54,145 nucleotides of DNA from Tsukamurella sp. M9C (GTDB taxonomy: Bacteria; Actinomycetota; Actinomycetes; Mycobacteriales; Mycobacteriaceae). Location: contig NZ_JAIULG010000032.1 in assembly GCF_020169415.1 (NCBI RefSeq), positions 1 to 54,145 of the forward strand. The letters run 5' to 3'. The notes beneath the pieces are model-generated. The model ran no database searches, was not told the origin of the DNA, and saw only the letters and a list, made by a program, of their open reading frames with translations. This document shows positions 9,001 to 10,753 of this stretch, piece after piece; positions within the stretch are counted from its first letter, which is position 1, and each line of letters begins with the position of its first letter. Position numbers and translations under genes: made by a program.

Positions 9001-10753
9001 CACGCCGGGCGTCGAGCCGCTGTACTGCGTGCACCCGGCCGTCGGGCTCGCGTGGAACTACCTCGGGCTGTCGGGCGAGCTCGACCCGAGCATCCCGATC
9101 ATCGGCCTGCAGGCGCCCGGCATCTCGTACCCGATGCCGCCCGCCGACTCGATCCGGGAGCTCGCGCGCACCTACGTCCGCAACATCCGCGCGAGCCGGC
9201 CGCACGGGCCGTACAGCCTGCTCGGCTGGTCCCTCGGCGGCCTCATCGCGCACGAGATGGCCGTCGAACTGCGGGAACTGGGTGAGAAGGTCAACCTGGC
9301 CCTCATGGACGCCTACCCGCTGGGCGACTACCGCGGCCCGCGCGAAGAGATGTCGATCGCGGCGCTGCTGCGCGAGTTCGTGGGCCTCGACGTGGACGAC
9401 GACGCGGAGCTGAGCACCGACGACGCCCTGGACCTGCTGGCCTCGGCCGGCGGCCCGGCGCGCGAGCTCTCACGCGGCCAGATGGAGCGGTTGCTGGCGA
9501 ACTACCGGCACAACACGACGCTGGGCTACTCGCACCGCCCCCGCGAGTACGACGGCAACATGCTGGTCTTCCGCGCGACCGAGCAGACCACGGGCGGCCT
9601 CGTGCCGCAGCTGTGGCGGCCGTACGTGACGGGCCTGGTGCAGGTGCACGACATCGAGGCGACGCACAACCAGCTCGGCGCGTCGCCGGCGATCGACGAG
9701 GTCGCCCGCACCATGAACGTCTTCCTCACCGGCAACTACACCGCGGTGGTCACGTCGAAGAGCAAGATGCTCGACGACACCAAGCCGCTGGTCAGCGTCC
9801 GGGGCCTGGCCCGCAAGTACGGCCGCGGCAAGAAGGCGGTGTACGCGCTCAACGGCGTCGACCTCGACATCGCGCCCGGCAGCGTGCACGCGCTGCTCGG
9901 CCCGAACGGCGCCGGCAAGACGACCACGGTGAAGATCATCTCGACGCTCATGAAGCCCTCCGAGGGCTCCGTGACCATCGACGGTGTCGACGCCCTGGCC
10001 GATCCGCGCCGCGCCCGCTCGATCATCGGCCTCTCGGGCCAGTACTCGGCGGTCGACGAGAACCTGACCGGTCGCGAGAACCTCGAGATGTTCGCCCGCC
10101 TCTACGGTTTCGACAAGATCTCGGCGAAGGCCCGGGCGAACGAGTTGCTCAAGCAGTTCCGGCTCACCGCCGCGGCGGATCGCGCCTCGGGCACGTACTC
10201 GGGCGGCATGCGCCGGCGCCTCGACCTGGCCGGGGCGATCATCGCCCGCCCGCGCCTGGTGGTGCTCGACGAGCCGACCACCGGTCTCGACCCGCGCAGC
10301 CGCAAGGACGTGTGGGACGTGATCGCCCGGCTCAGCAAGGAGGACGGCATCTCGGTGCTGCTCACCACGCAGTACCTGGACGAGGCCGAGATCCTGGCGG
10401 ACCTGGTCACGATCATCGACCAGGGCCGGATCATCCGGTCCGGCACGGTGCCGGAGCTGAAGTCGGCAGCCGCGGCGGACCTGATCCAGATCGGCCTGCG
10501 CGAGCGCGACCGCGTGACCGCCTGGCCGATCCTGGCCCGGCACGCCATCGACGGCACCGCGATCCGGGAGGCCTCCGGGCTCAGCGCGATCCGTGTGGCC
10601 GACGGCCAGCACAAGCTCGTCGCCGTGCTCAACGACCTGCGGGAGGCCGGCGTCTACGTCGAGTCGGCGATGCTGCGCGAGGCCACCCTGGACGACGTCT
10701 TCTTCGCCCTCACCGGCGAGGACGCGAACAAGACCGAGGAGAACAACGCATGA
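2..10753 (+). CDS. Non-ribosomal peptide synthetase (5'-truncated) ending in thioesterase plus fused ABC ATPase
   Basis: The frame is open from base 2, so the N-terminus lies outside the window; 3583 residues are visible. Domain order (numbered from base 2): C-terminal part of a condensation domain (1-265); A1 (297-760, TSGSTG near 432); carrier T1 (LGGNSL, Ser813); C2 (HHIAADG at 1015); A2 (1335-1813); T2 (Ser1859); C3 (HHIAADG at 2048); A3 (2370-2862); T3 (GGTSL, Ser2929); thioesterase (GWSLGG, Ser3077); DrrA-type ABC ATPase from about 3256 (GPNGAGKTT at 3300, SGGM near 3400, LDEP at 3422). No epimerisation domain is visible. Pocket residues aligned by eye to GrsA read D-A-L-F-G-G-V-I-A, D-A-L-F-L-G-G-I-M and D-A-L-F-S-G-A-I-A, which suggests hydrophobic substrates, but I cannot assign them. 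The stop overlaps the permease start (ATGA). The fusion is unusual: I see no stop between TE and ATPase. ATG 9767 could allow internal initiation but has only a weak ribosome site. Confidence 0.93.

Follow-up and report, generated by a model that had tools for sequence, protein, structure and literature searches.

Is the ATPase of a peptide exporter in Tsukamurella encoded as the last domain of the synthetase that makes the peptide, and if so, is it made only in that form? The question is raised by the window, a stretch of 54,145 nucleotides from Tsukamurella sp. M9C (contig NZ_JAIULG010000032.1). A first, sequence-only reading of it described the thioesterase (TE) of a non-ribosomal peptide synthetase (NRPS) as fused in frame, through a linker of about 20 residues, to a complete ABC ATPase.

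We identified a single open frame in positions 2-10753, with no stop until the TGA at 10751, that encodes the NRPS, TE, linker and ATPase in that order (Table 1). The frame opens at the first bases of its contig (C36 of the 4.73-Mb genome), and because the window starts at base 1 of that contig the NRPS is truncated at its 5' end. The open frame of the gene is 3754-3844 codons in 12 relatives. By Pfam, the predicted protein contains three domains each of the condensation, adenylation and carrier types, a single thioesterase (97.3 bits) and a single ABC_tran domain (107.3 bits, profile positions 1-137 of 137); PP-binding is among the matches on this one polypeptide. In a relative with the complete gene (L083) we found three HHxxxDG motifs, three carrier serines and one TE serine; thus, the NRPS motifs are intact.

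Table 1. Positions, in the window, of the fusion gene, its parts and the genes that follow it.
Feature	Position	Strand	Details
NRPS-TE-ATPase fusion gene	2..10753	+	C(partial)-A-T, C-A-T, C-A-T, TE, linker, DrrA-type ATPase; 3583 aa present
Thioesterase domain (Pfam PF00975)	9017..9718	+	GWSLGG Ser 9230-9232, Asp 9308-9310, His 9665-9667
ATG, the sole start-like codon near the ATPase conserved in 13/13 genomes	9713..9715	+	Met of last TE helix
Linker, 21 codons	9722..9784	+	Equal length in 13/13 genomes of the genus; pooled dN/dS 0.41
ATG proposed earlier as internal start	9767..9769	+	ATG in 1/13 genomes
DrrA-type ATPase	9785..10750	+	Walker A ~9899-9925, signature ~10196-10210, Walker B ~10259-10276, C-terminal DrrA part
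ABC-2 (DrrB-like) permease	10750..11589	+	ATGA overlap with fusion stop; SD GAGGAG, strong in 13/13
MbtH-like NRPS partner	11640..11843	+	SD AAGGAG in window genome; strong SD in 13/13

The TE is a type I NRPS thioesterase by its position C-terminal to the last carrier domain and by its Ser-Asp-His residues, and the solved structures nearest to it are NRPS TE chains (7crn, 7dxo). It is not the last domain of the assembly line, as the ATPase continues the same chain. Scanned alone, the ATPase part passes the cut-off of the NCBIfam drrA model (TIGR01188; 317.3 vs 312.45 bits, profile positions 6-302 of 302); scanned within the whole protein it falls slightly below that cut-off (310.9 bits). The Walker A, signature and Walker B motifs are intact in all 14 rows of the alignment, and glutamine occupies the H-loop position.

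The fused TE-ATPase is present in one stop-free frame, through the end of the ATPase, in 13 of the 16 genomes of the genus (the window genome included). The 12 fused relatives share 85-98% identity over the stretch from the TE to the ATPase start, and some are single-contig assemblies. All 13 genomes with the operon carry the fusion, and their linkers contain neither a stop nor an indel. The in-frame fusion described from the one sequence is confirmed and holds in 13/13 operons, and the linker is about 21 codons long (9722-9784). In the other three genomes (G009-G011) we found no TE match at 1e-20. Their permeases are distant (39-45% identity, vs 81-99% in the operon-bearing relatives), and the operon is likely missing from them (G009 is 83% and G011 93% complete). 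An error of sequencing or assembly, such as a missed indel or stop, could also produce a continuous frame. The identical frame recurs in 13 separate genomes, some of them in single contigs, and the RefSeq protein agrees with it. An artefact is, for practical purposes, excluded because 13 genomes show the same fusion with no stop or linker indel.

A long open frame is by itself weak evidence of a fusion in this GC-rich family, and open-frame length overstates fusions because 524-602 codons are open by chance 5' of split ATPases (L287, L288, L289, g23). Over codons 226-300, stops occur in none of the 13 genomes in frame, in all 13 in the +1 frame and in two in the +2 frame. Read out of frame, the same TE-ATPase stretch contains stops in 10 of 12 relatives. 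Pooled pairwise dN/dS, from pairs that are not independent, is 0.134 for the TE, 0.409 for the linker and 0.081 for the ATPase (pooled across codons 270-560 of the TE-ATPase stretch). These values point to purifying selection on both the TE and the ATPase that flank the linker. The linker itself evolves fastest, which would be expected of a passive spacer or even of a stretch that the protein could do without. If the linker were cleaved after translation, NRPS and ATPase would be released in equal numbers, and a linker that varies in sequence but keeps its length is what might then be expected. However, the 13 linkers show no evident conserved cleavage motif, and the annotation of the Tsukamurella tyrosinosolvens record lists no protease gene in the ~15 kb before or the ~20 kb after the operon; we consider cleavage very improbable.

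The gene that follows encodes the permease, and its ATG at 10750 overlaps the TGA at 10751, so that the overlap of the stop by a matching permease gene, also part of the sequence-only reading, is confirmed. The permease scores 98.8 bits against PF01061 (cut-off 26.9). We call it DrrB-like only, because against TIGR01247 (DrrB) it scores far below the cut-off (72.6 vs 223.05 bits). The nearest paralogs of the ATPase within the window genome are only 46-53% identical, which makes the fused ATPase the obvious partner of the permease. The same arrangement is found in T. tyrosinosolvens (NZ_LR134469.1), where the TE-ATPase stretch is 97.3% identical to that of the window. There the RefSeq protein WP_074850851.1 contains NRPS and ATPase in one protein, followed by the permease and MbtH, and the operon is flanked by leuA and a mannosyltransferase-family gene.

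Outside the genus, the same parts are mostly encoded by separate genes. We selected 66 loci with a TE beside an ATPase (13 from the window genus, 35 from genus g9 and 18 from others), of which 14 are fused and 52 split; five further loci that we read are all split. This is in line with the earlier statement that ABC exporters are usually encoded apart from the synthetase. The sequence-only reading had also considered that relatives might end the NRPS with a stop at this place and encode the ATPase in its own gene, with a missed indel behind the fusion. Such a stop and gene do occur in other genera, but in none of the operon-bearing genomes of the genus, and a missed indel is excluded.

The split loci differ in how the ATPase gene is placed and started. 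In all 34 split loci of g9 (L201-L234) MbtH sits between the TE and the ATPase gene, whereas in the window genus it follows the permease; thus, the gene order of the operon is not fixed. In g23 the ATPase has its own Shine-Dalgarno sequence (SD) and a GTG start, and in G1003 a stop, an SD and a GTG start at the ATPase likewise mark a split. On two Streptomyces plasmids (NZ_CP108192.1 and NZ_CP107856.1) gaps of 34 and 44 nt separate the NRPS from the ATPase gene. In g6 (L243, L244, L245), the closest split relatives, the TE and ATPase genes overlap by ATGA and the ATPase start lacks an SD. The NRPS of one of these loci (L244) is collinear with that of the fused relative L083, at 40% identity over almost the full length, and ends before the ATPase. 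The ATGA overlap in g6 presumably couples translation of the exporter ATPase to that of the synthetase and may be a stage before fusion.

Several candidate fusions were rejected. G086 and G546 were suggested by open-frame lengths, but the DNA shows stops; the other g9 genomes with suggestive open-frame lengths are also split, as all 34 g9 loci have a stop in the TE frame. A long frame lies upstream of the ATPase in G027, but a stop and MbtH intervene. In G967, G942 and G925 the long frame upstream is open by chance, in a phase that differs from that of the TE. No TE match was found at L103, L104, L108, L109 or L110, and no TE at L236; L235 (G529) has a TE but no ATPase nearby. At L097 (G037) the homology of the ATPase (~15590-16535 of the reversed locus) is broken between two frames, and this copy may be frameshifted or misassembled.

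The only fusion that we identified outside the window genus is in G176 (L095, ~15198-16941), a genome of g9, where it lies amid split loci. It is the sole fusion among the 36 g9 genomes with a TE match (59 were searched); one of the 36 (that with L235) lacks a nearby ATPase. MbtH is absent from its usual place in G176, the nearest copy being ~39 kb away on the same contig, and removal of MbtH may have accompanied this fusion. The closest start-like codon in G176 is 27 residues ahead of the ATPase homology. In a tree of 65 ATPases, where several long branches meet near the fusion/g6 clade, the 13 fusions of the window genus are monophyletic, with the three g6 rows as their sister group (96/79). 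The broken hit of L097 (187 aa) was omitted from this tree, and L107 is a duplicate of L244. In a TE tree of 34 chosen rows, the window genus and g6 form a clade (99/99) and G176 groups with the g9 loci (98/93). Two changes of the fusion label are needed on the ATPase tree, also when only well-supported branches are kept. These topologies indicate two independent origins of the fusion, the second known from one genome.

We also searched more widely with a profile of the fused stretch. In 401 genomes of the family there were, among the matches listed, 14 stop-free TE plus ATPase matches (the 13 and G176) and seven with one stop. In 298 genomes of the order, two stop-free fusions were among the matches listed, both from the window genus, and in 394 genomes of the class the window genome was the only stop-free one among those listed. 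Three, seven and five candidates were scored per genome in the family, order and class sets, respectively, so rarer fusions can be missed. A scan of contigs for two short ATPase motifs gave at least 80 ATPase loci, 79 of which have no TE match. No like fusion was found among the loci scanned with TE and MbtH queries (L052-L082 and L111-L191), a result uninformative on rarity; L111-L190 have neither a TE nor an MbtH match.

The likeliest account of the origin in Tsukamurella is that the stop between the end of the NRPS TE and an adjacent DrrA-type ATPase gene would have been lost in the ancestor of the genus. Such a loss could have been accidental and neutral, with a 20-residue tail on the ATPase tolerated, the pump unchanged, and neither coupling nor hand-off of the peptide. 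A tiny change would suffice to fuse the overlapping genes of the closest split relatives, the linker is the part that changes fastest, and separate genes serve most relatives well. Neutrality fits less well with the retention of the fusion in every operon-bearing genome of the genus and with its having arisen twice. Moreover, it is not obvious that a chain of 400 kDa on every ATPase does no harm, and a stop could readily return, yet a split revertant was found in none of the 13 genomes. On balance, we regard a neutral fusion as unlikely.

A second possibility is that the continuous frame is partly incidental because internal initiation yields a free ATPase beside, or instead of, the fused one. 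The start put forward in the sequence-only reading, the ATG at 9767, is private to the window genome. In the other 12 genomes the codon reads ACG, ACC or TCG (Thr or Ser), which rules it out as a general internal start. The ATG at 9713, conserved throughout, is a better candidate: its anti-SD energy is -7.1 in 10 of the 13 genomes, and the closest split relatives begin their ATPase without an SD, by way of the ATGA overlap. A free ATPase from this codon would bear a 24-residue leader. However, the energy drops to -3.0 in three genomes, and 11.0% of all start-like codons in frame across the 13 stretches (n = 429) reach -7.1. That energy is also weaker than those of the permease start (-8.7 to -12.0) and the MbtH start (-7.8 to -11.2), each in 13/13. 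Conservation of the codon is otherwise explained by the methionine that it contributes to the TE. The GTG at 9746 occurs in 10 of 13 genomes and has almost no SD (-1.7 to -3.5).

The best start codons, found over the same search range, differ between split and fused loci. The 52 split ATPases have a median of -11.6 (n = 51 with a start), and 44 of the 52 are at -7.5 or better; in the 14 fused loci the best start is at -4.8 to -8.3. The value of -8.3, in the window genome and L089, belongs to a GTG that lies 47 residues upstream, within the TE. The closest split relatives presumably make their SD-less ATPase by coupling, so the absence of an SD is no proof against a free ATPase. Overall, the start codons would lend a free ATPase no special support, and we consider internal initiation quite improbable; the likeliest product appears to be a single fused protein.

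We therefore return to a genuine fusion as the reading that we favour, with somewhat more confidence than doubt: a chain of ~3750 residues that would make the peptide, release it through the TE and carry the ATPase of its own exporter. The frame, its conservation, the intact motifs, the two origins and the split counterparts are direct observations. From these we infer that free ATPase is not made, that the ATPase assembles with the permease, that the synthetase docks at the membrane and that the peptide is handed off.

ATPases of the DrrA type act as pairs with permeases. From its operon context, the pump would export the peptide that this operon makes. The fused ATPase would pair, as motor, with the permease of the next, overlapping gene, so that each exporter would contain two fusion chains. 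With one chain, the ratio of synthetase to ATPase would be fixed at 1:1, each ATPase coming with a synthetase. If the ATPase assembles with the permease, the synthetase would be located at the membrane, docked at the cytosolic face of the pump, and the peptide would be freed beside the exporter; hand-off of the peptide to the pump, proposed with such tethering in the sequence-only reading, is a further inference. The passage from an ATPase gene with its own SD, to an SD-less ATGA overlap, to the fusion suggests a growing dependence of ATPase translation on that of the synthetase, which may have been the route by which synthesis was locked to export. The order of this series is a proposed one, because g6 and the window genus are sisters. 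A bolder version is a membrane-docked synthase-exporter, in which two NRPS chains lend their C-terminal ATPase domains to each permease dimer and no pump would form without assembly lines. Release by the TE beside the entry site, in step with the ATPase cycle, would then channel the peptide directly out of the cell. We offer this version tentatively, as a possibility that falls well short of probable.

The closest known systems are the separate-gene NRPS-(MbtH)-DrrA-DrrB operons of actinobacteria (the 34 g9 loci, g6, g16, g23 and others, and the Streptomyces plasmids), which have the same parts: a TE-ended NRPS, a DrrA-type ATPase, an ABC-2 permease and, often, MbtH. Those operons encode the ATPase separately, in most cases with an SD of its own, or behind MbtH, whereas in the fusion the ATPase forms the C-terminal domain of the NRPS and MbtH is the last gene. 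The order and overlap of ATPase and permease are like those of DrrA/DrrB, the daunorubicin exporter family (TIGR01188, TIGR01247), and the ATPase alone passes the DrrA cut-off. To our knowledge, DrrA proteins known so far are free-standing. By contrast, the ATPase here is fused in 13/13 operons rather than a free-standing subunit.

In one paper (PMC11539658), DrrABC is treated, and modelled, as an ABC exporter of type V, and the PDIM transporter MmpL7 of Mycobacterium tuberculosis is reported to contact late-stage biosynthetic enzymes (citing Jain and Cox 2005). Coupling of assembly line and exporter has been proposed for the PDIM system, but between separate proteins through contact with MmpL7, whereas the fusion is one chain. 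Judged by titles and abstract openings, none of the open-access papers found on NRPS-ABC fusions or coupled export describes such a fusion, nor do those found on Tsukamurella gene clusters and on DrrA/DrrB. The idea of coupling is already known; the new element is that synthetase and exporter ATPase are covalently joined.

So far the case for direct hand-off from an NRPS to an exporter has mostly relied on contacts that are weak or indirect. In these fusions, which arose at least twice, a single chain combines the releasing enzyme with the pump motor, and nearby genera supply natural split controls, which makes coupling directly testable; synthesis and export of the peptide may be joined physically. 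The locus also carries a warning for annotation, as the public T. tyrosinosolvens protein is annotated as one non-ribosomal peptide synthetase, under a product name that omits and so hides the exporter ATPase.

Two further observations concern the genus. The T. tyrosinosolvens sequence NZ_LR134469.1 (L026) is filed as a plasmid of 153 kb, but the genes on it include leuA and those for aspartate kinase and aspartate-semialdehyde dehydrogenase, and it may be a chromosomal fragment instead. A second NRPS, with 2276-2297 codons open (L022-L025), was identified in four of the 16 genomes. Its TE is 34-35% identical to that of the fusion, and the match ends before the ATPase part.
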